This document shows positions 4,699 through 62,143 of a DNA stretch of 64,000 nt, piece after piece. Each line of letters opens with the position of its first letter. Positions within the stretch are counted from its first letter, which is position 1. The stretch comes from a virus. Under the pieces are notes generated by a model that did no database searches, was not told the origin of the DNA, and saw only the letters and a program-made list of their open reading frames with translations. Location: IMG/VR virus record IMGVR_UViG_3300033273_000833, positions 62,001-126,000 of that record. The stretch is one strand, 5' to 3'. The translations under genes and the position numbers were made by a program.

Positions 4699-5062
4699 GG
4701 GCGTGTACTGGATTCGATTTAAATTGGATTAGTATACTGCAAGTAGGAGTTGCATCTGGCTCCTCAAAAAGGTGCAAACAATTACATGGCAACAAAAACC
4801 GTGTTAAAGCTTTCGGCCTTAAAGCTAAAAAGCTTGCCCTAGCAGCTTAGTTCTGCTACCTCGTAACCTTTGACGCAGATAAAAGGATTACGGGGCCATT
4901 AATCTGCAAAACAGAAAAAGTTTTCTTGCTTCACAAACTGCAAATAATTGAAACAAGAAGTTGGATGTTAATATCATAACTGTAAAAAAAATTAACTAAA
5001 CTTGTAGGCGTATATCTACAGAAAATTTAAAGACGCGGGTTCGACTCCCGCCACGTCCACCA
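4699..5062 (+). ncRNA. ssrA: tmRNA (one-piece), with encoded proteolysis tag
   Basis: The 5' GGGCGTG (4699-4705) pairs with CACGTCC (5052-5058), followed by A and an encoded CCA (5060-5062). The T arm with GGTTCGACTCCC sits just before. A tag frame runs from GGC 4788 to TAG 4848 and reads GNKNRVKAFGLKAKKLALAA. Its stop codon lies in the loop of a TAGCAG/CTGCTA hairpin (4840-4858), as in helix 5 of known tmRNAs, and the tag ends in the LALAA degradation signal. The resume point falls at nucleotide 90 of the RNA, as in E. coli. At 364 nt the length is normal. tmRNA rescues stalled ribosomes. The resume codon was chosen by position and frame. Confidence 0.93.
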
Positions 5063-9526: not shown

Positions 9527-9688
9527 CTATTCTCCAAATTTGTAACCGAAATACTCAATGTGCGTACTACCCCCATATGGGTCTCCGTTGTACCCCGTGT
9601 CCGATCTTCCGAAGACAGCCTCCTCGACTGATTCTCCGCCACATTTTGCAAAATGCACAAATATAATTTTTTGTTTATGACAAATCAC
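9527..9688 (-). pseudogene. Collapsed sulfotransferase relic (internally deleted)
   Basis: A 53-codon frame opens with GTG at 9688. Its start (HKQKIIFVHFAKCGGESVEE) matches the PAPS-binding start of the neighbouring sulfotransferases (HKHKFIFIHIPKCGGSSIE). After a short linker it jumps straight to their shared C-terminus (HIEYFGYKFGE). About 140 residues are missing, including the RNPWDR core. Residues expected in the P loop are altered (P to A). It is still an open frame, so a mini-protein cannot be excluded, but it cannot be a working sulfotransferase. Confidence 0.8.
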
Positions 9689-9690
9689 TA

Positions 9691-10452
9691 TTATCTATGT
9701 TTGCGGTTTCCTAAGCCTGTAATATATTTCCTGTTTTTCTGTATATACAGATTATCATATATCCCTTTGGATTTGGAGATAACAGTGTTTTTATTATAAA
9801 TCCCAGCAATTCCGCTAAACGAGGATATTCCAGAAGGAAATAATATGTCGCATAATATCATGTCATTGATTGCAGTTAGCTCTGGTGTATTGCGATCATA
9901 TACATTTACTCTCATTCCATGAGTGTTAAGCTCCCTTAAATTTATATTTCCGTCAGTATGTATATTTATTGATAAGGGGGGATTTATGTAGTAGTGGATA
10001 TAATCTAAAATATTTTTTAGGTCTTCAGTAGAGCAAGCTCTATATCTAACTGGTTTACAGCCTTTATATTCCTCATTAGCAGTATCTCCTCTTCGCACAT
10101 GTATACAGATATTGGTCTGATTAACTTGTTGAAGAGTGTTTTCTAGAGGGGTGTAGTTTTTAATGATTGATTGCATAAATTTGCTACTAAAATCAGCAAA
10201 TAAGCCACGTTTGATAATTGGAGTATAATTAGCTTCACCGCTAAAGATGGTGATCTTATTTAATTCTTTCTCACAAATGTTATGAAATTTAGAGCCTAGG
10301 TTAAAGACAGACTCGTATGGATCCTCGAGTGGTGTGTGTATATATTCGAAGCCTTCTTGTTTAGCAAAGTAAGCGGTCCATAGTCTGCTATAAATTTGCA
10401 TACCAATCCTATCTGTTTTTTGACAGGTGATATATTTTTTTGCTTTTCTCAT
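9691..10452 (-). CDS. Fucosyltransferase-like protein (GT11-type HxRRGD)
   Basis: The 253-residue product has CIHVRRGD (~116-123), the donor-binding motif of alpha-1,2- and alpha-1,6-fucosyltransferases, after an N-terminal part (DRIGMQIYSRLWTAYFA) like the GxGNQLFQ start of GT11. The late region (LCDILFPSGISSFSGIAGIYN) matches the usual FSWWAA/SSFS motif region. Donor would be GDP-fucose or a related GDP sugar, which the phage could make through its gmd and fcl homologues. The acceptor is unknown. Confidence 0.65.
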   Translation of the reverse strand: MRKAKKYITCQKTDRIGMQIYSRLWTAYFAKQEGFEYIHTPLEDPYESVFNLGSKFHNICEKELNKITIFSGEANYTPIIKRGLFADFSSKFMQSIIKNYTPLENTLQQVNQTNICIHVRRGDTANEEYKGCKPVRYRACSTEDLKNILDYIHYYINPPLSINIHTDGNINLRELNTHGMRVNVYDRNTPELTAINDMILCDILFPSGISSFSGIAGIYNKNTVISKSKGIYDNLYIQKNRKYITGLGNRKHR

Positions 10453-13189: not shown

Positions 13190-13993
13190 TTATTCAGGTC
13201 TTTTGCCTAAAGGTTTTCCATCTTGACCAATTTCTCCAGCCCTAATTTTGGTTGCAGAAACATTTTGAAGCTCTTTACTTAATTCAAGCTGCTCAATGTT
13301 ATATCCTACGCCTCTACCATAAAATACATCTGTAATATTTGGAAGCTCAACAACTTTAATTTTATTCCCAAACTCAATGCATGCAGAATGAATTTCTGCT
13401 TTAACTTTTTCAAAATTATATGGATTCTTTTCGTCAATTCCGCCGACATCTCTTAAAGCAATGCAGCATTGCCCAGTTCTTTTAATCGCTTCAGCAACTA
13501 ATGTTTTATGGCCAACATGAAAAGGTTGATACCTCCCAATTAATAAAGCTGTTGGAGCTTGATTATCCCAGGATTCTGTTTCATTTAATTTATTCAATAC
13601 TCTTTCAACCCATTCTTCTGGAGATCCGTCAGTTAGTCTTACGTCGTAATTCAAAGGTCTTTCAAACATTTTATTAGTGTCTTCGTATCTACCTTCCATA
13701 ATCCTATCGACCCATACAACAAAATCAGCAGCAAATGCTTTTCTTGTTTCTTGGGTAGGGCATACAAAATCGGCGACAGAGTAACCTCCGCCCATTGAAG
13801 ACCAAGAACATAGTTTACCCATTCTTTCGGCATGCTTAATTCTATCTTCTTCCGAAAACCCTAGCTCTGAATATATATCTTGCCTAACGGCATCAGCGTT
13901 AAACCAGGCTGCGTTAATTTTTTTTACTAAAATCTCAGCCAACGTTGTTTTGCCAGATCCTGGGAGCCCCATAATCAAAATTTTTCTTTTCAT
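13190..13993 (-). CDS. APS kinase-like/nucleotidyltransferase fusion protein
   Basis: The N-terminal ~145 residues are a P-loop kinase: GLPGSGKTTLAE (Walker A), FNADAVRQDI, then RKAFAADFVVWVDRI, as in adenylylsulfate kinases (CysC). The C-terminal ~115 residues are a separate cytidylyltransferase-like fold with LIGRYQPFHVGHKTLV (HxGH motif) and NVSATKIRAG (ISSTxIR-like). The pair could convert sulfate or APS towards PAPS for the sulfotransferases downstream, although the C-terminal domain looks more like an NMN/pantetheine-type adenylyltransferase than a classical ATP sulfurylase. It heads the leftward glycan operon. Confidence 0.75.
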   Translation of the reverse strand: MKRKILIMGLPGSGKTTLAEILVKKINAAWFNADAVRQDIYSELGFSEEDRIKHAERMGKLCSWSSMGGGYSVADFVCPTQETRKAFAADFVVWVDRIMEGRYEDTNKMFERPLNYDVRLTDGSPEEWVERVLNKLNETESWDNQAPTALLIGRYQPFHVGHKTLVAEAIKRTGQCCIALRDVGGIDEKNPYNFEKVKAEIHSACIEFGNKIKVVELPNITDVFYGRGVGYNIEQLELSKELQNVSATKIRAGEIGQDGKPLGKRPE

Positions 13994-26388: not shown

Positions 26389-27489
26389 ATGAATACTTAT
26401 GGTTTACTGAGCTCAAGCTCAACTTTGTCACAATCCTCTACTAGTAACGCTTTTAGAAGCTTATCCAAAAAAGCTTTTAATTCTAAGTCTCTTGATGAAG
26501 CCATAGCTGAGCTCAGTGAAATCATAATGCATAATGCGGTGTGCGCGCAAAACCATCTCAAATTTTGTGCTCAAAACAACATTAAGTTATATTCTATATT
26601 TAATGACTTAATTCCTTTGTTGCACGATGACGCAATACCATGTTCTATTAAAGACTTAAACGACTATGAGTCTATTATTAAAGAATTAAAGAAAATTGGA
26701 ATTATAGCAAGAAAATTTAATATTAAAATTTGTGTCGAACTAAGGAAACAAGTATTCTTGTCAGGTACAGACAATACTATTAAAAAATCTTTAAATTTAA
26801 TTAATTTATGGTCTACAATTTTTGACTTGTTCGAACTAGACCAAGGGCAAGAATCTCCAATTATTGTGCAAATTAATAATTCTGTAAATGAAGCCGAGGA
26901 ACTAAAACTAAAAAACGTGGTTGATAAATTTTACTCATCTTTTGAAAACCTACCCGAATCTTCTCAATCAAGAGTCGTCGTAACCAATGAAAAAGAAGGT
27001 TGCTGGAACTGTCAAAATCTATTTAAATGGTTGCATCTATACTGTGGCGGAGAATATGGCAAATTCTTTTCTTTATCTTACAATAATTTAAATCATAAAT
27101 TAAATTCCTCTATAGTTGGCGGTTCTGAGGTTTCTGATAAGCAAAATGTTCAAGCTTTTAAACATACTTGGGCTAAAAACGTAACTCCCACTTTCTTTTG
27201 GGACGAAGAACCTCTTGATGATTCATTTTCTAAAGAAATTCCTGATTTTGGAGAGAGCGTTAATTGGGTATGCTGTGGTGTAGAAAGTGATAAGAATATT
27301 TTTGGAATGCAAGGCGTTGTTGTTGAAGATGAGAATCTTGACATTAGTAGCTTTGATGAATTACTTATTGACGTCGAAGTTGATGATAGTGATATTAATG
27401 AAAGCGAAATAGATCTTGCTCATAAGAAAATTAGAGAAGCTTTAGAGTCAAAAGGGGGCAAAGACTTCAATTCTATATACGGTTTTTAG
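26389..27489 (+). CDS. UvsE (UV endonuclease)-like paralogue lacking metal ligands
   Basis: A 366-residue protein that aligns along its length with the intact UvsE at 58038-59048: RSLSKKAFNSKSLDEAIAEL against RTMTRKRFNDL..., IGIIARKFNIKI against VGLIAKRFNISI. The metal-binding residues are replaced: SHPDQF to ELRKQVF, NIHVNY to IVQINN, IENEDKG to VTNEKEG, CYDNLHD to SYNNLNH, FHWSEG to FFWDEE. An acidic C-terminal extension (~80 residues) is added. It is probably not a nuclease but kept as an intact frame. A GTGTAAA element lies 10 bases before its ATG. Confidence 0.82.
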   Translation: MNTYGLLSSSSTLSQSSTSNAFRSLSKKAFNSKSLDEAIAELSEIIMHNAVCAQNHLKFCAQNNIKLYSIFNDLIPLLHDDAIPCSIKDLNDYESIIKELKKIGIIARKFNIKICVELRKQVFLSGTDNTIKKSLNLINLWSTIFDLFELDQGQESPIIVQINNSVNEAEELKLKNVVDKFYSSFENLPESSQSRVVVTNEKEGCWNCQNLFKWLHLYCGGEYGKFFSLSYNNLNHKLNSSIVGGSEVSDKQNVQAFKHTWAKNVTPTFFWDEEPLDDSFSKEIPDFGESVNWVCCGVESDKNIFGMQGVVVEDENLDISSFDELLIDVEVDDSDINESEIDLAHKKIREALESKGGKDFNSIYGF

Positions 27490-38906: not shown

Positions 38907-39959
38907 ATGAAGAAAATTATCATAACAGGAGTAACAGGTCAAGACGGTAGCCACATGGTAGACTATCTCTTAAAATTATTTAACGAAGAGTTTGGTAAAA
39001 CAGACTACATGATATACGGATCGATAAGAAGGTTAAGTGTCAAGAATCATGAAAACATTTTACATCTAGAAGATGAGCCTAGATTTCAGTTAATTGACAT
39101 GGATCTAAATGATCCTCACAGTATTCGTGACGTGGTCATCGATATTCAGCCTGATTACTTTATTAACTTTGCGGCTCAATCCTTTGTGGCAGGAAGCTGG
39201 AAATATCCAATACAAACGTGGGACACTGATGCAGATGCCGTTCTTCATATTTTAGAATCAATTCGTAGATTTGCACCAAATTGTAGATTTTATAATGCTG
39301 GATCATCTGAAGAATTTGGAGATGTCATTTATAGCCCTCAAGACGAAAAGCATCCACTTCGCCCTCAATCTCCTTATGGAGCTGCAAAATGTGGTGCTAG
39401 GCATATAGTCAGAGTCTATAGAGAATCTTATGGTCTATATGCAGTTCAAGGCTGGTTATTTAATCATGAAGGAACTCGCAGAGGACTTGACTTTGTAACT
39501 CGAAAAATTACTCATACTATCGCTAGAATTAAAATTGCTCTTGAAAATAACAAACCCCTACCAATTCTTAAACTTGGAAACTTAGAGGCTAAAAGAGACT
39601 GGAGTGACTCAGAAGATTTTATGGAGGGAGTATGGTTAATGCTAAATCAAGACGCTCCTAAAAATTATGTTCTAGGAAGCGGTGAAATGTTTACTGTTAG
39701 GGAGTTTTTAAATATTTGCCTTAAATATGCTGGTATTGAGTTTGAAACTAGAGGCTCTAATGATTCCGAAGAATATTATACAAAAGAAGGTGCTCTATTT
39801 TTTCAGGTAGATCCTAAATTTTATCGACCTGCAGAAGTTCATGAGCTGTGTGGAGATCCATCTCTTGCTGAAAAAGAATTAGGCTGGGTAAGAAAAACTT
39901 CATTCGAAGCCTTAGTAAAAAAGATGTACGACAATGACTACCAATTACTCAATCACTAA
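38907..39959 (+). CDS. gmd: GDP-mannose 4,6-dehydratase
   Basis: A 350-residue extended SDR: ITGVTGQDGSHMVDYLLKLF (NAD loop), NFAAQSFVAGSWKYP, GSSEEFGDV, SPYGAAKCGARHIVRVYRES (catalytic Tyr-Lys), and FNHEGTRRGLDFVTRKI. It converts GDP-mannose to GDP-4-keto-6-deoxymannose. TATAAT (38893-38898) lies 8 bases upstream of the ATG, within a GTGTAAT element. It overlaps the next gene by 26 bases. Confidence 0.93.
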   Translation: MKKIIITGVTGQDGSHMVDYLLKLFNEEFGKTDYMIYGSIRRLSVKNHENILHLEDEPRFQLIDMDLNDPHSIRDVVIDIQPDYFINFAAQSFVAGSWKYPIQTWDTDADAVLHILESIRRFAPNCRFYNAGSSEEFGDVIYSPQDEKHPLRPQSPYGAAKCGARHIVRVYRESYGLYAVQGWLFNHEGTRRGLDFVTRKITHTIARIKIALENNKPLPILKLGNLEAKRDWSDSEDFMEGVWLMLNQDAPKNYVLGSGEMFTVREFLNICLKYAGIEFETRGSNDSEEYYTKEGALFFQVDPKFYRPAEVHELCGDPSLAEKELGWVRKTSFEALVKKMYDNDYQLLNH

Positions 39960-40908
39960 AGATTCAAAAATTTTCATCGCAGGCCACAGAGGAATGGTCG
40001 GCTCTGCGACATTAGATTGTCTTAAAGCTCAAGGCTATCAAAACATCGTAACTAAAAACAGGAAAGAGCTTGACTTAACAAACCAAAAAGATGTTGATTC
40101 TTTTTTTGAAAAGGAACAAATCAACATTGTTATTCTATGCGCGGCAAAAGTTGGAGGGATACTCGCCAACAATACTTATAGAGGAGATTTCCTTTATGAT
40201 AATTTACTCATTAGTGCAAACATTATTAAAGCCGCCCGAGATTGCTCTGTAGGTAAATTAATCAATCTAGGCTCGTCTTGCATTTATCCTAAAAATTCGG
40301 ATTTACCAATTAAAGAAGAAAGTCTTTTGAGCGGATTTCTAGAGTCTACAAACGAGCCTTATGCTATAGCTAAAATTGCGGGATTAAAATTATGCGAAGC
40401 ATTCTACCACCAATACTCTAGTAATTTTTACTCAATTATGCCATGCAATTTATACGGCGAAAGAGATAATTTTGACCTCAAAAGCTCTCACGTACTTCCT
40501 GCGTTTATTAACAAATTCCATACTGCAAAAGAAAGTGATTTAGATTTTGTTAAAATTTGGGGCTCAGGAAAACCTAAAAGAGAATTTTTGCATGTTAGGG
40601 ATTTGGCTAACGCTATACTGTTTTGCTTGGAGAATGTTGAAGCTGAAGACATATACAAGTACAATATTTCTCACTTGAATTGCGGTTCATCTCAAGAAGT
40701 TTCTATCCTAGAGTTAGCCAACTTGATTAAAAAAACTGTAAAATATAAGGGCGAAATCAGATTCGATAAATCGAAGCCAGATGGAACTTTTAGAAAAGTT
40801 ATGAACAATAATAGAATCTTCAAATTAGGCTTTTTACCTCAGATATCTCTCGAGGATGGGATTAAACAAACATATAATTGGTATATAAAAAATAATGAAA
40901 AAAAATAA
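39934..40908 (+). CDS. fcl: GDP-fucose synthase (WcaG/Fcl)
   Basis: A 324-residue SDR: IFIAGHRGMVGSATLDCLK, AAKVGGILANN, NLGSSCIYPK, EPYAIAKIAGLKLCEAFYHQ (catalytic Tyr-Lys), and MPCNLYGERDNF. These are hallmarks of GDP-4-keto-6-deoxymannose epimerase/reductase, which makes GDP-L-fucose from the product of Gmd. Coupled to gmd by overlap. Confidence 0.92.
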   Translation: MTTNYSITKDSKIFIAGHRGMVGSATLDCLKAQGYQNIVTKNRKELDLTNQKDVDSFFEKEQINIVILCAAKVGGILANNTYRGDFLYDNLLISANIIKAARDCSVGKLINLGSSCIYPKNSDLPIKEESLLSGFLESTNEPYAIAKIAGLKLCEAFYHQYSSNFYSIMPCNLYGERDNFDLKSSHVLPAFINKFHTAKESDLDFVKIWGSGKPKREFLHVRDLANAILFCLENVEAEDIYKYNISHLNCGSSQEVSILELANLIKKTVKYKGEIRFDKSKPDGTFRKVMNNNRIFKLGFLPQISLEDGIKQTYNWYIKNNEKK

Positions 40909-41818
40909 ATTTTTAGTAACTGGTGGAGCTGGATTCATTGGTAGTAATCTTGTTGACTTATTAATAGAAGAAGGTCACGAAGTAACTGTTGTGGATAATT
41001 TATCAACAGGCAAAGAGTCAAATTTAAACCCAAAAGCGAATTTTGAAATACTTGATATAAGTCATTCTTGCAATCAAGAAAAACTGACCAAGTTAATGGT
41101 TGGTTGTGATGGCGTTTTTCATCTTGCGGCTCTTGCCAGGGTTCAGCCTTCGATTGAAGACCCTAATGAATTTAATAAACAAAACGTTAATGGAACACTA
41201 AATGTTATTGTTGCTGCTCGCGACTCAAAAGTTAAAAGAGTGGTGTACAGCGCCAGCTCCGCCGCTTACGGGGACGCTGAAGTTTTACCTACTCCAGAAG
41301 ATTTCCCAACCGACCCTTTGAGTCCTTATGGTTTACAAAAATTAATTGGAGAACAGTATTGCAGAGTTTTTTATCATTGTTACGGTTTAGAGACTGTTAG
41401 CCTTCGCTATTTTAATGTTTTTGGGGAAAGGCAGTCTCTAGATAGTGGCGCTTATAAACTGGTTATGAGTGTATTTGCACAGCAAAGGCTGGAGGGAAAG
41501 CCTCTGACGATAACAGGAGATGGCGAACAGCGTAGAGATTTTACCTACGTTGGGGATGTTGCTAGAGCAAATCTTTTGGCAATGACTTCAGAAAATGTTG
41601 GAAGCGGAGAAGTTATTAATATAGGCTGCGGAGATAATCGTTCAGTAAATCAGCTCGCTGATCTTATGGGCGGGGAAAAAACATATATAGAAAAAAGGCT
41701 TGAACCTCAAGAAACCCTTGCCGACAACAGCAAAGCTAAAAAACTCTTAGAATGGGAGCCAACCGTGTCAATTGAAGAATGGGTTCCAAAATATAAAAAA
41801 TCCTTAAATATTGATTAA
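40895..41818 (+). CDS. NAD-dependent sugar epimerase/dehydratase (UDP-glucose 4-epimerase-like)
   Basis: A 307-residue SDR with FLVTGGAGFIGSNLVDLLIE (NAD loop), HLAALARVQPSIEDP, SASSAAYGDAEVLPTPE, LSPYGLQKLIGEQYCRVF (Tyr-Lys), and LRYFNVFGERQ. Substrate specificity cannot be read directly; WbpP- and GalE-type proteins look alike. It overlaps fcl by 14 bases. Confidence 0.85.
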   Translation: MKKNKFLVTGGAGFIGSNLVDLLIEEGHEVTVVDNLSTGKESNLNPKANFEILDISHSCNQEKLTKLMVGCDGVFHLAALARVQPSIEDPNEFNKQNVNGTLNVIVAARDSKVKRVVYSASSAAYGDAEVLPTPEDFPTDPLSPYGLQKLIGEQYCRVFYHCYGLETVSLRYFNVFGERQSLDSGAYKLVMSVFAQQRLEGKPLTITGDGEQRRDFTYVGDVARANLLAMTSENVGSGEVINIGCGDNRSVNQLADLMGGEKTYIEKRLEPQETLADNSKAKKLLEWEPTVSIEEWVPKYKKSLNID

Positions 41819-42227: not shown

Positions 42228-42257
42228 TTGTGTAATTTGATAAAAATTACATATAAT
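42228..42257 (+). promoter_or_regulatory. Possible promoter before the DUF1549/DUF1553 gene
   Basis: TTGTGT (42228-42233), an 18-base spacer and TATAAT (42252-42257), 5 bases before ATG 42263. The -35 is weak and overlaps a GTGTAAT element (42230-42236). Confidence 0.5.
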
Positions 42258-42262
42258 ATATT

Positions 42263-44533
42263 ATGAAAATTCTAACTATTCTATTATTGTCATCAATTTT
42301 CTGCTTTGGTGATGTTCTTTATTTTAATAACGGAAAAGACCTAAAAGGCGATATTATTGAAGCGAACGCGACACACGCATTAATTAAAAGATCAAGCGAC
42401 TTGCAGTTATTTAGAATCGCTATCGATTCTTTAACAGAAGACAATCGGGCGTATATTAAAAACAATTTTGCACCCAGCCATGAAGCTCTACCTAAGTTCA
42501 ATAAACCCTTGTCTGATAAAGAGTTAACTACCCACTCCAAATACATTGATAGTTTAATTGAAACAAAATTAAGATCATACAATCTTAGGTCGAATAAAGA
42601 AGTTGATGATGCCACTTTTTTGCGCAGATCTTATTTAAAAATTATCGGCAGAACACCATCATTAACCGAAGTAGACTCCTTTTTAAATAGCAGAGAAAAT
42701 AATAAAAGATCTAAATTAATTGATCAATTACTAGGCAGCGAAGGCTATGTAAGCCATTGGTTTAATTTTTGGGCAGATATATTAAGAATAAAAGATCGAC
42801 TGAATAATAGAATATCTGGAGTGCCATACAAAAATTATGTAAAAGATTTTATATCTAATAATAGGCCTTACGATGAATGGGTAAGAGAGATGCTTTCCTC
42901 TTCTGGCCCATTATGGATAAAAGGCAATGAAGGAGTTAGTTATTTTGCTCGAGATGTAAATATGCCTCTTGACAGCATGGCTAATACAGTCCGAGTTTTT
43001 TTAGGTACTAGCCTTGAATGCGCTCAGTGCCATGATCACCCTTTTGATCGTTGGACACAAAAACAATTTTATGAAATGGCAGCATTTACGAGTGGGTCAA
43101 CCAATTTAAGAATAAAGAGTCCAGATAATTTAACTCAGTTAAACAGGCTAGTGAGGGACGAAAGAAAAAAACTAGAAGATTCAGATCAGCCTCAAAAATC
43201 AAGACAATTATCAAATGCTGTCAGAGATATCCAAGATATTCTGCAAACTGGTTTAACTAGTTTAGGAAATGGTAAGATAAATTTACCGAAAGATTATCAA
43301 TATAACAATGCAAAACCAAATGAAGTTTTATTAGGTAAAACAATTTTTGGAAAAGAAATCGATATCAAAACTAAAGCTCCTGACGCTGGTTCTAGAGAGA
43401 TTTACGCTAATTGGTTGGCTTCAGATTCTAACCCAAGATTTACCGCTGTAATTGTAAATCGTTTATGGAAAGAAGTGTTTGGGCTTGCCTTAATTGAACC
43501 TCTGGATAATATGTTCGACGATACTCTCGCAACTGATACAAAACTTCAGTTACATTTGGAAAAAGTTATGGTTGCATTAGATTATGATTTAAAAGAATTT
43601 TTGAGGATATTATATAACACAAAGACTTTTCAAAGACAATCTGTAGTTCGAGATGTAATACCTAAAGACAATAAAGATCAGTCTATGCCTGTAGATGTAA
43701 AATGGATCATAGCTGGACCAAATGTAGAAAAGCAATCTCAAGGAGCAATTCCATATTTCTATCAAGGGCCAATACTCGAAAGAATGAGTGGCGAGCAAAT
43801 CTGGGACTCTTTAGTCAACTTAACCTTTAATGATATAGACTCTAGAAAATTAGAGCAAAACACAAAAGGTTACCAGAATTACGAAAATTTTTCCGAAATG
43901 ACTGGAGAAGAATTGTTTGCAGACATAATGGCTAAAATTAATAAAACAGAAAAGCCAAAAATAGAGAAGAAGACTAAGTTTTCTGAACCTATCAACACCG
44001 ACTGCCCCATAAAGCCTGGGAGGGCAATTGATCCAACATTATTAGCTCTAAACGAAAACGGAGAAACTCTTGCGTTTTGTTGCGAATCTTGCGTTGATAA
44101 ATATAAATCCCAGCAGAAAGCTAGAGAACAAGAGTATAAGCAGAATTTTGTTAAAGATAGAAACTCTGTCAGAGCCTCTGAACTGCCTTCCCCTGCTCCG
44201 ATTGGTCACTTAATCCGAGAGTTTGGAGGTTCGGATAGAGAGCAGATAGAAAATGCGCATAAAAGCGCCTCTGCAACACAAGTATTAAATTTACTCAATG
44301 GGTTTGTAGAAACTAGATTATTAAAAAATAAAAACTTTGAAATTATTAAAGCAATTCAATCTCAAAAATCATTAAATGATAAAATAAAAGTTGGATATAA
44401 ATACATACTAAATAGAGAGCCTGACACTAAAGAGTTAAGAATTTTTTCTGACAATTTAAAAAACGCAAAAGAACCTTATAAAGAAATAATATGGACGCTA
44501 ATCAATACTCATGAATTCATGTTTATTAAATAA
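42263..44533 (+). CDS. Secreted DUF1549/DUF1553 protein (planctomycete/verrucomicrobial type)
   Basis: A 756-residue protein with a signal peptide (MKILTILLLSSIFCFG). A short DVLYFNNGKDLKGDIIEA segment precedes DUF1549: DATFLRRSYLKIIGRTPS, FWADILRIKDR, then LGTSLECAQCHDHPFDRW with a CxxCH motif. DUF1553 follows (NPRFTAVIVNRLWKEVFG, LALIEPLDNMFDD). A CPIKPG...FCCESCVDKY stretch between resembles YHS/TRASH metal-binding. Such proteins are common in Planctomycetota and Verrucomicrobiota, usually beside DUF1501 genes as here, and their biochemical role is unknown. Exceptional in a phage. Confidence 0.9.
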   Translation: MKILTILLLSSIFCFGDVLYFNNGKDLKGDIIEANATHALIKRSSDLQLFRIAIDSLTEDNRAYIKNNFAPSHEALPKFNKPLSDKELTTHSKYIDSLIETKLRSYNLRSNKEVDDATFLRRSYLKIIGRTPSLTEVDSFLNSRENNKRSKLIDQLLGSEGYVSHWFNFWADILRIKDRLNNRISGVPYKNYVKDFISNNRPYDEWVREMLSSSGPLWIKGNEGVSYFARDVNMPLDSMANTVRVFLGTSLECAQCHDHPFDRWTQKQFYEMAAFTSGSTNLRIKSPDNLTQLNRLVRDERKKLEDSDQPQKSRQLSNAVRDIQDILQTGLTSLGNGKINLPKDYQYNNAKPNEVLLGKTIFGKEIDIKTKAPDAGSREIYANWLASDSNPRFTAVIVNRLWKEVFGLALIEPLDNMFDDTLATDTKLQLHLEKVMVALDYDLKEFLRILYNTKTFQRQSVVRDVIPKDNKDQSMPVDVKWIIAGPNVEKQSQGAIPYFYQGPILERMSGEQIWDSLVNLTFNDIDSRKLEQNTKGYQNYENFSEMTGEELFADIMAKINKTEKPKIEKKTKFSEPINTDCPIKPGRAIDPTLLALNENGETLAFCCESCVDKYKSQQKAREQEYKQNFVKDRNSVRASELPSPAPIGHLIREFGGSDREQIENAHKSASATQVLNLLNGFVETRLLKNKNFEIIKAIQSQKSLNDKIKVGYKYILNREPDTKELRIFSDNLKNAKEPYKEIIWTLINTHEFMFIK

Positions 44534-44895
44534 TCCCATTTCTTATATTTAAATATATAAATCATATTGCTTTTAATATAAATCCACCCCAACTTTTCTG
44601 CATAAAAATACCCTTTTTTGTTGGGCATATTATAAACCCATCCTAATTTTTTTGAATATATCCAATCATTGCTTATTGATTTTTGATAAGTTCCATATAC
44701 CCTGCCAAGCCCCTTCATATCGAACCATATAGACTTAGGTTTTTTCTGGCATTTAGCCATCCATTCGCCAATATCTAAAGGTTCTCTATATTTAGCTTTT
44801 TTTTTACACCAATCACAATCATCCAGAAAATCATCTAATTCAACCCTAGCTCCTGTACAAACGCAAATCATTACAAAAATAAAGAAAAACCTCAC
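44509..44895 (-). CDS. Small secreted protein with LGW(I/V)Y repeats
   Basis: A 128-residue protein from GTG 44895 with an N-terminal signal-like segment (FFFIFVMICVCTGA), a cysteine pair (DWCKKK, then AKC), then repeats WIYSKKLGWVYN, YFYAEKLGWIYI. Similar LGW-type C-terminal repeats are frequent in Verrucomicrobiota proteins (recalled, not searched). It lies between, and opposite to, the two DUF genes. Confidence 0.6.
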   Translation of the reverse strand: MRFFFIFVMICVCTGARVELDDFLDDCDWCKKKAKYREPLDIGEWMAKCQKKPKSIWFDMKGLGRVYGTYQKSISNDWIYSKKLGWVYNMPNKKGYFYAEKLGWIYIKSNMIYIFKYKKWDYLINMNS

Positions 44896-44916
44896 ATTTA
44901 TGTATACACAAATTGT

Positions 44917-44944
44917 TTGATTTTTTAAAAAATGTGTATATAAT
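44917..44944 (+). promoter_or_regulatory. Promoter before the DUF1501 gene
   Basis: TTGATT (44917-44922), 16-base spacer, TATAAT (44939-44944), 6 bases before ATG 44951. It lies in the divergent gap with the LGW-repeat gene. Confidence 0.65.
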
Positions 44945-44950
44945 ATTATT

Positions 44951-46243
44951 ATGAACTTAAATACAATAGACGAATTAGGAAGAAGAGAATTTATAGCTCA
45001 TGCCGCCAGAGCATGTTTTGGAGTAGGGTTAATGCCGATGGCGGGGGCATACATACATAATAGTGTTAGCGCTTTACAGCCTGGAGCTAGAGTTCCAACA
45101 GCCAGACACGTTATTTATTTAAATATGGCAGGGGCAATGTCTCATCTGGACACATTTGGCCCGAAACCCGATGCTCCTGATATCCAAGGCCCAACTCAGT
45201 CTATTTCTACAAGTGCAGACGGTATTATTTTATCAGAAAATTTACCCTTAACCGCTCAACACATGCATAATGGCTCTATTATTAAAACAATGGTTACGAG
45301 TCAAGGCGCGCATGAGCAAGCAAGCTACCTAATGCACACAAGCTATCTTAAAAGAGGCACTATTGTACACCCAACTTTTGGTAGCTGGGTTTCAAAACTT
45401 TCAGGATCAATCAATAGAACGATTCCAAGTAATATAAAAATCGGCGGAGGCGGAGGTGGAGCTGGATTTTTAGAGTCTAAATACGGAGCACTTCCCATCA
45501 ATAATCCTTCATCAGGTTTAGCTAATAGTAAGATGGCTTCATACTTAGATCATGAGCATTTTCAGAGCAGAATATCTATTGCAGAACAGTTAAACGAAAA
45601 TTTCTCCACAGAGTTTCCTCAAAAGCAAGTTAGAGCTTATGGTGACCTCTATAAAGACGCCATTAAATTAATGAATAGCAATGATCTTAATGCGTTCGAT
45701 ATAACCCAAGAAGCTGAGTCAACAAGTTCTCTCTACGGACCAACTAATTTTGGTAAAGGCTGCCTACTAGCAAGAAGGCTAGTGGAGCATGGAGTAAGAT
45801 ATGTTGAAGTCACAAGAGGAGGATGGGACACTCATGACAATAATTTTGAAAGAGTAGCGGCTAATTGCGCTGATATAGACAAGGCCTTAAGTGGGCTACT
45901 TATAGACTTAGATAGAAGAGGTCTGCTATCAGAAACTCTAGTTGTTCTAACTTCAGAATTTGGACGCACTCCAAACATTAACGGCAGAGACGGCAGAGAT
46001 CACTGGCCTTACTGCTTCACAGCGTTCCTAGCAGGAGGCGGAGTCAAAGAAGGCTTTAGTTACGGAGAGACAGATAAAACTGGCAGATCCCCTACGGAAG
46101 GCAAACCAATTAAGCCTGAAGATCTGAATGCTACAATTGCTCATACGCTAGGCTTACCACTAAATGACTATCAGTATTCGCCGTCAGGAAGGCCTTTTAC
46201 CATAGCTCATAAAGGCGAGCCTTTATTTGATATTTTGGCTTGA
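44951..46243 (+). CDS. Secreted DUF1501 protein
   Basis: A 430-residue protein with a Tat-like start (LGRREFIAHAARACFGVG), then VIYLNMAGAMSHLDTFGPKP, GHEQASY-like segments, GGWDTHDNN and LTSEFGRTPNINGRDGRDHW. These are the core motifs of DUF1501, an alkaline-phosphatase-like superfamily member found next to DUF1549/DUF1553 proteins in Planctomycetota and Verrucomicrobiota. The substrate is unknown. It has its own leaderless-type promoter, separate from the upstream partner. Confidence 0.9.
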   Translation: MNLNTIDELGRREFIAHAARACFGVGLMPMAGAYIHNSVSALQPGARVPTARHVIYLNMAGAMSHLDTFGPKPDAPDIQGPTQSISTSADGIILSENLPLTAQHMHNGSIIKTMVTSQGAHEQASYLMHTSYLKRGTIVHPTFGSWVSKLSGSINRTIPSNIKIGGGGGGAGFLESKYGALPINNPSSGLANSKMASYLDHEHFQSRISIAEQLNENFSTEFPQKQVRAYGDLYKDAIKLMNSNDLNAFDITQEAESTSSLYGPTNFGKGCLLARRLVEHGVRYVEVTRGGWDTHDNNFERVAANCADIDKALSGLLIDLDRRGLLSETLVVLTSEFGRTPNINGRDGRDHWPYCFTAFLAGGGVKEGFSYGETDKTGRSPTEGKPIKPEDLNATIAHTLGLPLNDYQYSPSGRPFTIAHKGEPLFDILA

Positions 46244-46268
46244 CAAATAATTTAAATTCATCTATAAT
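46240..46268 (+). promoter_or_regulatory. Near-consensus sigma70 promoter, leaderless arrangement
   Basis: TTGACA (46240-46245), 17-base spacer, TATAAT (46263-46268), then 6 bases to ATG 46275. The -35 overlaps the stop codon of the DUF1501 gene. Confidence 0.92.
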
Positions 46269-46274
46269 ATTTAG

Positions 46275-46871
46275 ATGAATAAATTACCAAAAATTATCGG
46301 CCTAACAGGGTTTGCAACGAGCGGCAAAGACACGTTTTTTACTGCAATTAATTCTTTAGCAAAAGATATGAATCTTCCAGAAATGACAAGATTTGCCTTT
46401 GCGGATGAACTTAAACGAGAATGTGATTCATTTTTAATTGAAAATGTAGGTATATCAGCTTGGACTTCTGAAAAAAAATCTAAAGAAATAATTAGACCTT
46501 TTTTGGTTACATACGGAACTCATATCCGAAGGAAGTTAGATCAAAATTGCTGGATTAATAAAATTAAAGATTCTGTAGAAAATTGTATAGCTAATAATGA
46601 GATTCCTGTCGTAACAGATGTACGGTACGAAAACGAAGCTTTATGGGTTAAAGAACAAGAAGGTATTATTGTCCAAATAAACAGAGAGTCTATCGGACCA
46701 GCAAATAATGAAGAAGAGTCTGAAATGAAAAAGCTTTCGAATTATCAAGATTTTTCTGTAGATTGGCCTACATTCGGCGCCGATAATCTATCAGAATGTA
46801 TGGGCTTCGCTAGATCCTTTTTGTCTCAATTAGGCTCAAGCATGGCAGTGGAATCTAATGCTTTTACCTAA
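46275..46871 (+). CDS. Deoxynucleoside monophosphate kinase
   Basis: A 198-residue P-loop kinase: IIGLTGFATSGKDTFF (Walker A), FADELKRE, LVTYGTHIRRKLDQNCWINK and VVTDVRYENEALWVK. The order matches T4 gp1-type dNMP kinases that feed dNTP synthesis. Own promoter; overlaps the next gene by 14 bases. Confidence 0.88.
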   Translation: MNKLPKIIGLTGFATSGKDTFFTAINSLAKDMNLPEMTRFAFADELKRECDSFLIENVGISAWTSEKKSKEIIRPFLVTYGTHIRRKLDQNCWINKIKDSVENCIANNEIPVVTDVRYENEALWVKEQEGIIVQINRESIGPANNEEESEMKKLSNYQDFSVDWPTFGADNLSECMGFARSFLSQLGSSMAVESNAFT

Positions 46872-50786: not shown

Positions 50787-51290
50787 ATGAACTTATATAA
50801 CATTGCAAAACACTGTAATTCACCCGAAAAAGTATACGGAGTAGTTGAAATACCCAAAGACACAAACGTAAAGTATGAATATCGCCCTGATTTAGAAGCA
50901 TTTATTTATGATAGGAGCTTATTAAGCTCTATGGTTTATCCATCTAATTATGGCTTTATCCCTAGTACAAAAGCTGAAGACGGAGACGCCTTAGATGTGT
51001 TGATTTATAATGGAACTCCTATTGACAGAGCTACTATAGTAGAGTGTAAAATAATTGGTGTATTAGACATGGAAGACGAAGGGCAAAAAGATTACAAAGT
51101 TTTAGTAACTCCTGTTTCTCATGTTAAAAAATATCGAGGTCTTGAGGACATTGACCCTCATTTTTTAAATATATGTAAAAATTTCTTTTCTCATTACAAA
51201 GACTTAAATGGAAAAAAGGTAGAAGTTTTTGAATGGCATGATAGTGATTTTGCTAAAAATATAGTCGAAAAAAGTTATATCAAATATTAG
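50787..51290 (+). CDS. ppa: Inorganic pyrophosphatase
   Basis: A 167-residue family I pyrophosphatase: VVEIPKDTNVKYEY, YPSNYGFIPSTKAEDGDALD (catalytic DxDxxD-like), VLVTPVSHVKKYRGLEDI and VEVFEW. It hydrolyses pyrophosphate released during nucleic-acid and sugar-nucleotide synthesis. A GTGTAAA element lies 12 bases upstream. Confidence 0.92.
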   Translation: MNLYNIAKHCNSPEKVYGVVEIPKDTNVKYEYRPDLEAFIYDRSLLSSMVYPSNYGFIPSTKAEDGDALDVLIYNGTPIDRATIVECKIIGVLDMEDEGQKDYKVLVTPVSHVKKYRGLEDIDPHFLNICKNFFSHYKDLNGKKVEVFEWHDSDFAKNIVEKSYIKY

Positions 51291-58002: not shown

Positions 58003-58031
58003 TTGACATTTTTTTTGTTTTGTCTTATGAT
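58003..58031 (+). promoter_or_regulatory. Near-consensus sigma70 promoter, leaderless arrangement
   Basis: TTGACA (58003-58008), 17-base spacer, TATGAT (58026-58031), then 6 bases to ATG 58038. It fixes the start of UvsE. Confidence 0.9.
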
Positions 58032-58037
58032 TATATC

Positions 58038-59048
58038 ATGTCAGAACAAATATTAGGCTTAACTTGCATTAGTGAAGAACTAAAGGAGAAAGATAAAGTT
58101 AAATATTCCTTTAGAACTATGACTCGCAAAAGATTCAATGATTTGTGTAACTCCGAAGGTAGAGATGAAGCAATTAATCAATTATCTGAAAGAATTTTGC
58201 ACAATGTTATTGTTACTCAATATATTGTCAATCATTGCCATGCCTCAAATATTAGGCATTATCGTCTTAGTTCTGCTCTTTTTCCTCTCCTTACCGATCA
58301 GACTTTGGAAATTTCTTTGGAAGAATTGCCTCACAGAGCAAGAATCGAAAAAGGATTAGAATTTGTAGGCTTAATTGCAAAACGCTTTAATATATCAATC
58401 GGCTCTCACCCCGACCAATTCAATGTTCTCGCGTCTCCCGATAGAGACAAGGTTAGTCGCACTATAAACGAACTTAATTTCCAAGCGAGCGTTCTTGACA
58501 TGGTAGGACTACCACAAGATCATACTGCACCGATGAACATTCATGTAAACTATACTCCAAAAATGGATGAAAGTTTGGAAATAGTTGCAACTAGATTTTT
58601 TCGCAATCTTTCTATGTGCGACAAAGGTGTTTATAATCGTCTAACTATCGAGAACGAAGACAAAGGTTTCTTTAATGTAGATAATTGCATCAAATTTAGT
58701 GAATACTTGTTTGCAGTCTTCGGTGTTAATATTCCTGTTTGTTACGACAATTTGCATGACTTCTGCAACCCATCAGAAGATCATAATATTGCATTTCAAG
58801 CAGAGCGATGTGCATATACATGGGTAAATCAAGGAAGTGGTGATAACAATTTTGTTGCTCCTGTTTTTCATTGGTCAGAAGGTAAACCCGAAAAGCCTCG
58901 CTCTCATGCAGACTATTTTGCTCTTGGAAATTTTCCACCACATATCGCCATTGACCCCGATCAACCTGCCAAGTGGGAGTGTGAAGTTAAGTTAAAAGAT
59001 CAAGCGATTAAAGTATTGCGAAATAATCTAACAGAAAAAAGTGGTTGA
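58038..59048 (+). CDS. uvsE: UV damage endonuclease UvsE
   Basis: A 336-residue TIM-barrel endonuclease: RTMTRKRFNDLCNSEGRDEA, NISIGSHPDQFNVLASPD, NIHVNYTPKMDES, RLTIENEDKGFFNV, CYDNLHDFCNPS, VFHWSEG and PRSHADYF. All the His/Glu/Asp metal ligands of UvsE are present. It nicks DNA 5' to UV photoproducts. Own leaderless promoter. Its degenerate paralogue lies at 26389. Confidence 0.92.
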   Translation: MSEQILGLTCISEELKEKDKVKYSFRTMTRKRFNDLCNSEGRDEAINQLSERILHNVIVTQYIVNHCHASNIRHYRLSSALFPLLTDQTLEISLEELPHRARIEKGLEFVGLIAKRFNISIGSHPDQFNVLASPDRDKVSRTINELNFQASVLDMVGLPQDHTAPMNIHVNYTPKMDESLEIVATRFFRNLSMCDKGVYNRLTIENEDKGFFNVDNCIKFSEYLFAVFGVNIPVCYDNLHDFCNPSEDHNIAFQAERCAYTWVNQGSGDNNFVAPVFHWSEGKPEKPRSHADYFALGNFPPHIAIDPDQPAKWECEVKLKDQAIKVLRNNLTEKSG

Positions 59049-61555: not shown

Positions 61556-62143
61556 ATGAGCGGAGAAGGTTTATCAGTTAGTTTTAGAAGAACATCCTTT
61601 ACGGATAAGTCTAATGCAGAACTCCTTAAGGAGTTTCAAAAGATCATCTACAATAGTAGAGTCATGAGACATATGAAATGGTATGGCAAACTTCATAGCG
61701 TTGACATACTAGAGCATGGTGACGACAACCGACCAAAATTTCAACAAGAATATGTTGCAATTAAAGACACTTTTCAATTTGAGATTAGTGTTTATGATTC
61801 TTGGTACGAAGATGCCGATCTTTATGAGTCGCATGAAGTAGAAGATAGTTTTGTGTCTCTTGCTTTTAAGTTCGCCAAAGATAACAACTTGATGTATTTT
61901 TCCCAAGGTTTTCCTGCTGAATGGATAGAGACAGAAACTACTGATGGAGAAAGATGTTGGAATCATTATAATGTAAAACCCGATGATAAAAACATTGACA
62001 AAATATGTAAAGTATGGCATGATTATGGTATGAAAATGATTCAAGCAGAACAATGTGGTCAAGCTGACGAAATGAAAAGTTATTATTGGGCAAATGCAAG
62101 AGATCAAATAAAAGAATTAATGGAATATGAATATGCAAAATAG
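61556..62143 (+). CDS. Protein of unknown function
   Basis: A 195-residue acidic protein: SGEGLSVSFRRTSFTDKSNA, then YEADLYESHEVEDSF-like acidic segments and WHDYGMKMIQAEQCGQADEM. No family recognised. Own promoter; it heads a small unit with the next two genes. Confidence 0.6.
   Translation: MSGEGLSVSFRRTSFTDKSNAELLKEFQKIIYNSRVMRHMKWYGKLHSVDILEHGDDNRPKFQQEYVAIKDTFQFEISVYDSWYEDADLYESHEVEDSFVSLAFKFAKDNNLMYFSQGFPAEWIETETTDGERCWNHYNVKPDDKNIDKICKVWHDYGMKMIQAEQCGQADEMKSYYWANARDQIKELMEYEYAK

Follow-up and report, generated by a model that had tools for sequence, protein, structure and literature searches.

A DUF1549/DUF1553 and DUF1501 gene pair of Opitutales origin, repeatedly captured by large marine phages

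Few protein families of Planctomycetes and Verrucomicrobia have expanded as much, or are understood as little, as DUF1501, DUF1549 and DUF1553. Here we describe a pair of neighbouring genes, one for a DUF1549/DUF1553 protein and one for a DUF1501 protein, on a 64,000-nucleotide stretch of viral DNA (the window), which covers positions 62,001 to 126,000 of the 203,067-base IMG/VR virus record IMGVR_UViG_3300033273_000833 (G000). We present the phage location of the pair, its host origin and repeated capture, its predicted export and fold, and a possible role during infection. Positions are those of the window unless another record is named.

The gene pair and its phage genome

The first gene (42263-44533, + strand) encodes a protein of 756 amino acids (aa) with the Pfam families PF07583/DUF1549 (E 1.2e-44, 153.3 bits against a gathering cut-off of 29.8) and PF07587/DUF1553 (E 7e-24, 85 bits against 28.5), and with DUF4214 at the C-terminus (E 2e-9, above the gathering score). 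The second gene (44951-46243, + strand) encodes a DUF1501 protein of 430 aa that is matched over its full length by PF07394 (positions 1-389 of the 390-position profile, E 1.2e-105, 354 bits against 27). An earlier, sequence-only reading had placed the pair at exactly these coordinates, and the Pfam scores lie far above the cut-offs.

The pair is host-derived and sits on a genuine phage genome. The same reading had taken it to be carried by a phage, and this is borne out by a TerL gene at record positions 161018-162133, by window genes for a lambda-J-like tail fibre, a minor tail protein and tail-assembly proteins, by a phage-encoded transfer-messenger RNA (tmRNA) and by collinear contigs. A clamp-loader/RuvB-like ATPase and a GIY-YIG homing endonuclease are also encoded in the window. 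About 20 contigs bear the pair, and L003, L004 and L006, which carry three other metagenome identifiers, show identical gene order on both sides of it. TerL is 66-97% identical among records with the pair (G001, G006, G008) and with DUF1501 alone (G003, G004), so that these records represent one phage family.

Both genes are under strong purifying selection and kept functional. Among the clade A phages, defined below, the median pairwise ratio of nonsynonymous to synonymous substitution rates (dN/dS) is 0.053 for DUF1501 and 0.050 for DUF1549/DUF1553, values that are rough because synonymous changes come close to saturation and the pairs that reached it were excluded. It is very improbable that the pair is passenger DNA, an assembly chimera or a prophage edge and not functional phage cargo. 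Some DUF1501-bearing contigs in IMG/VR may indeed be host contamination, and the genes are an oddity in a phage; the same junctions recur, however, in contigs from other metagenomes, and the dN/dS of 0.05, the phage-type promoter elements and the repeated capture argue in the same direction. A chimera or a prophage boundary between 42 and 46 kb, a possibility raised by the sequence-only reading, is ruled out by the junctions that L003, L004 and L006 share on both sides.

Features of the window around the pair are as follows.

4699-5062: tmRNA, phage-encoded
38907-41818, + strand: genes for GDP-mannose 4,6-dehydratase (GMD), a GDP-fucose-synthase-like protein and an NAD-epimerase (nucleotide-sugar module), upstream of the pair
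42252-42257, + strand: TATAAT, 5 nucleotides (nt) before the DUF1549 start codon (from sequence and positional test)
44000-44140, + strand: CP...CCxxC metal-binding-like module inside DUF1553, sole remaining copy (from alignment; approximate borders drawn by eye)
44509-44895, - strand: open reading frame of 128 aa between the pair genes, no family match
44917-44944, + strand: promoter-like element TTGATT ... TGTGTATATAAT, with 6 nt between the end of its -10 and the start of DUF1501
46240-46268, + strand: TTGACA-17-TATAAT (12 of 12 consensus positions), 6 nt before the ATG of the next gene, an ordinary phage gene with the same arrangement as the pair
46275-46871, + strand: deoxynucleoside monophosphate (dNMP) kinase (phrog_139), a phage nucleotide-metabolism neighbour directly downstream of DUF1501

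The 128-aa reading frame is found at the same site in some relatives (51-67% identity, dN/dS 0.21), and others are without it. Two homologues of the UvdE-family UV-endonuclease are encoded by the same phage, at 26389-27489 and 58020-59048.

Host origin and repeated capture

The sequence-only reading had assigned both proteins to planctomycetal and verrucomicrobial families, and phylogeny against chromosomal copies agrees, as it nests the pair in marine Opitutales. The nearest chromosomal genes, with up to 83-89% identity, belong to metagenome-assembled and single-cell genomes of marine Opitutia/Opitutales (Verrucomicrobiota). In chromosomes the two genes are normally adjacent, as had been supposed: the host operon has the order DUF1549/1553 - DUF1501 - PSCyt1, and genes for SufS, PAS and sulfatase lie close by. 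Host genomes contain 6-55 DUF1501 loci each. The operons of TMED40 (L065) and of the single-cell genome AM-382-K23 (L074) share with the phages the orthologous first two genes in the same order, with DUF1501 83-89% identical; the phages differ by the missing PSCyt1 gene, a shorter DUF1553 region, phage-type promoter elements and the lack of a Shine-Dalgarno-like site before DUF1501.

In the DUF1501 tree, clade A (16 phages including that of the window) is placed among TMED40-like hosts and clade B inside another Opitutales group (87-89% identical), while clade C, which has DUF1501 alone, and locus L057 are placed apart. For A, B and L057 the placement is confirmed by the DUF1549 tree, in which the window protein is again nested in marine Opitutales. 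The approximately unbiased test rejects a single ancient capture when A+B (p 1.5e-89) or A+B+C (p 1.5e-49) are joined into one clade of phages, and only marginally so for A+C (p 0.035). Phages therefore acquired the same operon on at least two occasions, and probably on three or four.

The phages carry either the operon's two leading genes or only DUF1501. No member of the PSCyt1 family was detected in 16 virus records, whereas the two hosts searched as controls gave 22 and 27 matches. Host DUF1553 regions mostly contain two CP..CCxxC modules, or one together with a PSCyt1-type CxxCH segment. A single module remains in clade A phages, and none in clade B and L057. On the basis of the gene trees, these large marine phages most likely infect Opitutales-type Verrucomicrobiota.

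Occurrence in viruses

The sequence-only reading knew of no phage example of the two families. This holds for 50,697 GenBank phages and for PHROGs, where neither gene of the pair was found, but fails in IMG/VR, with 34 loci for a close DUF1501 (61-92% identity) and 23 for a close DUF1549/1553 (41-88%). It also fails in BFVD: the entry A0A6J5M742, from an uncultured Caudovirales phage, is annotated as 'DUF1501 domain-containing protein' (14% identity to the window DUF1501), and DUF1501 in phages is thus not wholly unreported. The open-access literature in PubMed Central (PMC) delivered no report of phage DUF1501 or DUF1553; one open-access paper mentions DUF1501 and phage together, for merely a weak 61-aa CDD match in a Pseudomonas phage.

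A broad DUF1501 profile, run to counter the bias toward close relatives of the query, found DUF1501 relatives encoded in 473 IMG/VR stretches, some of which may be host contamination in that database. The best 80 loci were examined, and 60 of these have two to four DUF1501 genes. Many of these arrays adjoin genes for an exonuclease, dNMP kinase, primase, DnaB, PhoH, ribonucleotide reductase (RNR) or UvsX. The broad profile thus revealed array-type phages and showed that phages have captured other DUF1501 genes besides the Opitutales orthologue. Only 6 of the best 80 loci contain DUF1549-like genes, and the pair of DUF1549 with DUF1501 is mostly the Opitutales orthologue. In two sampled array-type records (G025, G029) the terminase is only 24-25% identical to that of the window phage.

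At the array loci L146-L224 (e.g. L157:5112-12293, L146:5722-10520 and L160:6760-11867) the two to four DUF1501 genes are nearly tandem, belong to deeply different subfamilies and adjoin RNR, PhoH or replication genes. At L022:11296-15605 a second DUF1501 (34% identical) stands beside the captured clade B pair, between proteins of 550 aa and 453 aa that match neither Pfam nor NCBIfam.

Promoter-like elements and translation starts

According to the sequence-only reading, each gene of the pair has its own promoter-like sequence in the phage style. The position of the elements upholds this in part: TATAAT lies 4-8 nt before the ATG of 7 of the 59 window genes that start with ATG, against 0.36 expected, and both pair genes are included. 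The starts with TATAAT 5-8 nt upstream of the ATG are 211, 36107, 38907, 42263, 44951, 46275 and 49297. Sigma70-like matches across the region, on the other hand, amount to chance (53 against 51.9 in shuffles, no excess), and only position-specific promoter tests were used for this reason. A variant element, TTGAC...TGTGTAATAAT, precedes DUF1501 in the clade A phages L002, L005, L006, L007 and L012, and its TGTGTA core recurs before other phage genes at window positions 26389, 38907 and 50787.

A Shine-Dalgarno-like site precedes none of 16 phage DUF1501 genes, compared with 11 of 18 host orthologues, and the window phage is poor in such sites altogether (5 of 54 genes). TATAAT close to the ATG, together with the scarcity of Shine-Dalgarno sites, suggests leaderless or near-leaderless transcripts. 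In clade C (L025, L029, L034, L031) DUF1501 starts a short distance after a CCA that ends a tmRNA-like sequence at its 3' side, as if co-transcribed; in L029 the tmRNA spans 9588-9984 and DUF1501 begins at 9992, its ATG 7 nt after the CCA.

Export signals, conserved residues and predicted structures

The N-terminus of the DUF1549/DUF1553 protein, MKILTILLLSSIFCFG, is Sec-like, as judged from the sequence alone. That of DUF1501 (GRREFIAHAA...) resembles a signal for twin-arginine translocation (Tat), with RR at residues 11-12 in every one of the 47 copies aligned from phages and hosts; a Tat-like motif is also present in 164 of 177 DUF1501 proteins from the broad set. Both N-termini support export of the proteins.

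Across the 47 phage and host copies of DUF1501 and 177 further phage copies, H121, D293, H295, R339 and H351 are invariant and E336 and D350 nearly so; all are candidate active-site residues. The DUF1549/PSCyt2 part of the partner contains the CxxCH motif C253-AQC-H257 (CAQCH, residues 253-257, window 43019-43033, + strand), of which C, C and H are invariant in alignments of 46 phage and host proteins.

The AlphaFold2 model of DUF1501 (pLDDT 86.1, pTM 0.84) aligns with ENPP6 at Z 20.9 (root-mean-square deviation, rmsd, 2.9; 244 residues), with PafA at Z 19.9 and with choline and other sulfatases at about Z 19. Structure comparison gave 503 chains at Z >= 8, the best 50 rows being relatives of nucleotide pyrophosphatases/phosphodiesterases (NPP), alkaline phosphatases (AP) or sulfatases throughout, and Foldseek was concordant (best E 6.8e-8). 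DUF1501 is therefore predicted to be a hydrolase of the alkaline phosphatase superfamily. With ENPP, Xac NPP and PafA it shares the fold (Z about 20, rmsd 2.9-4.4), but only 12-16% identity; its conserved residues (H121, D293, H295, E336, R339, H351) form a set peculiar to it, and the canonical first metal ligand is not evident. Hhalign paired the DUF1501 segment TSEFG, with E336, with the metal Asp of the sulfatase segment TTDNG, over 35 columns and at a probability of only 7.8%.

The DUF1549/DUF1553 model (pLDDT 86, pTM 0.83) has an SHD1-like N-terminal domain, matched to 2hbp with rmsd 1.9 over 52 columns (weak E, probability 1.0). Among the families listed, the fold search gave no confident match beyond the SHD1 part.

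As sulfatases are among the fold matches and a sulfatase gene lies close to the host operon, the pair might serve carbon or sulfur metabolism by aiding the periplasmic processing of sulfated algal oligosaccharides in the infected cell. Such a role would be in line with a proposal for Verrucomicrobia, where PSCyt genes adjoin sulfatases and are proposed to act on mono- and oligosaccharides (PMC5615132). We regard it as a live but rather unlikely rival: the formylglycine-sulfatase motif C-x-[PA]-x-R (cysteine form) is missing in 47 of 47 DUF1501 sequences, and the phages omit the PSCyt1 gene and place nucleotide genes beside the pair.

Gene neighbourhood and possible role

A nucleotide-metabolism gene (RNR, dNMP kinase, deoxyribosyltransferase-like or inorganic pyrophosphatase, at several different sites) is found at most two genes from the cassette in 14 of 16 clade A phages, 10 of 10 of clade B, L057, 3 of 8 of clade C and 28 of 79 array-type loci. 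These counts are not independent, as closely related loci enter them more than once and early genes tend to lie together, and the link to nucleotide metabolism is suggestive only. Relatives of the window phage have RNR, a phage DNA polymerase III alpha and a ClpB-like ATPase near the pair.

An inorganic pyrophosphatase (PF00719, 1.9e-46; no PHROG) is encoded at window 50787-51290, and its homologue adjoins DUF1501 in L029 and L034. A fusion of a kinase with a cytidylyltransferase-like protein (phrog_10255; window 13190-13993, - strand) recurs with 85-90% identity in clade C and L014, where it lies at the DUF1501 site. At L017:11385-15843 the phage DNA polymerase III alpha, a PHP-like domain and an exonuclease are encoded by separate genes.

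The sequence-only reading had offered auxiliary metabolic genes or host-surface modifiers. The first is plausible, and we give about an even chance to the view that the pair represents captured auxiliary metabolic genes for an exported ester hydrolase, whose release of phosphate or nucleosides from phosphoesters feeds phage DNA synthesis. Phages have repeatedly taken two genes of one three-gene host operon, or just DUF1501, leaving out the PSCyt1 gene and, in most lineages, trimming the cytochrome/metal modules of DUF1553, and several lineages have supplied the genes with promoter-like elements of their own. During infection DUF1501 would be exported via Tat and DUF1549/1553 via Sec. DUF1501 would act outside the cytoplasm as a metal-dependent ester hydrolase, with DUF1549/1553 as its partner or as a substrate-presenting protein. 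Its most likely, if unproven, activity would be to free phosphate or nucleosides from phosphoesters for phage DNA synthesis, which is favoured because the pair genes sit in a nucleotide-synthesis module.

Several points weigh against this proposal. No member of the DUF1501, DUF1549 or DUF1553 families has an activity known to us; a shared fold proves no function and gives no DUF1501 substrate, and no DUF1501 residues could be matched to the canonical first metal ligand and nucleophile of AP and NPP. DUF1549/PSCyt2 has a single haem-type CxxCH motif, with a putative role in haem binding or redox reactions. The position next to RNR or dNMP kinase may reflect no more than a permissive site among the early genes. 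A search of 273 genomes from the order that presumably contains the host gave no match to the phage TerL, and the host assignment rests on gene trees for that reason. In clade A, finally, the pair also adjoins nucleotide-sugar genes, which fits surface modification.

Surface modification remains a rival explanation: the exported pair would remove sulfate, phosphate or phosphocholine/ethanolamine from glycans of the host envelope or capsule and so block superinfection or alter access to the receptor, alongside phage nucleotide-sugar genes and glycosyltransferases. The window neighbours GMD, GDP-fucose synthase, epimerase and a GT61 glycosyltransferase (Pfam), the GMD homologues near 15 of 35 viral loci and the LtaP/LtaS-like and choline-active enzymes among the DUF1501 fold matches are in its favour. 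Clade C, L014 and the array-type phages are, however, mostly without a glycan neighbourhood, and in the host the orthologue is part of an ordinary operon on the chromosome, which includes PSCyt1 and lies close to genes for SufS and a sulfatase. We consider this explanation rather unlikely.

Some known auxiliary metabolic genes of phages encode proteins that are exported, for instance cyanophage pstS and phage phoA. The pair resembles these in that it is host-derived, predicted to be exported and, in the nucleotide-supply proposal, tied to nutrient supply during infection; it differs by families of no known activity, by probable Verrucomicrobiota hosts and by the repeated capture of one operon. 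More doubtfully, marine Verrucomicrobiota phages may routinely bear an exported salvage arm of replication, made up of Tat-secreted DUF1501 phosphohydrolases (single, paired or in arrays of two to four) beside RNR, dNMP kinase or PhoH, which would free phosphate or nucleosides outside the cytoplasm and so supply phage DNA synthesis.

Significance

Phages tend to retain only genes that pay, and the repeated capture of one operon among many paralogues, without its cytochrome partner, therefore marks a functional core, which is expressible and assayable. The pair also gives a gene-based link of large uncultured marine phages to hosts among the Verrucomicrobiota. It adds a widespread family of exported putative enzymes, unlisted in the phage libraries searched (GenBank phages and PHROGs), to the phage repertoire. 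If the tentative salvage-arm proposal is true, it would provide the first function for the DUF1501 family.

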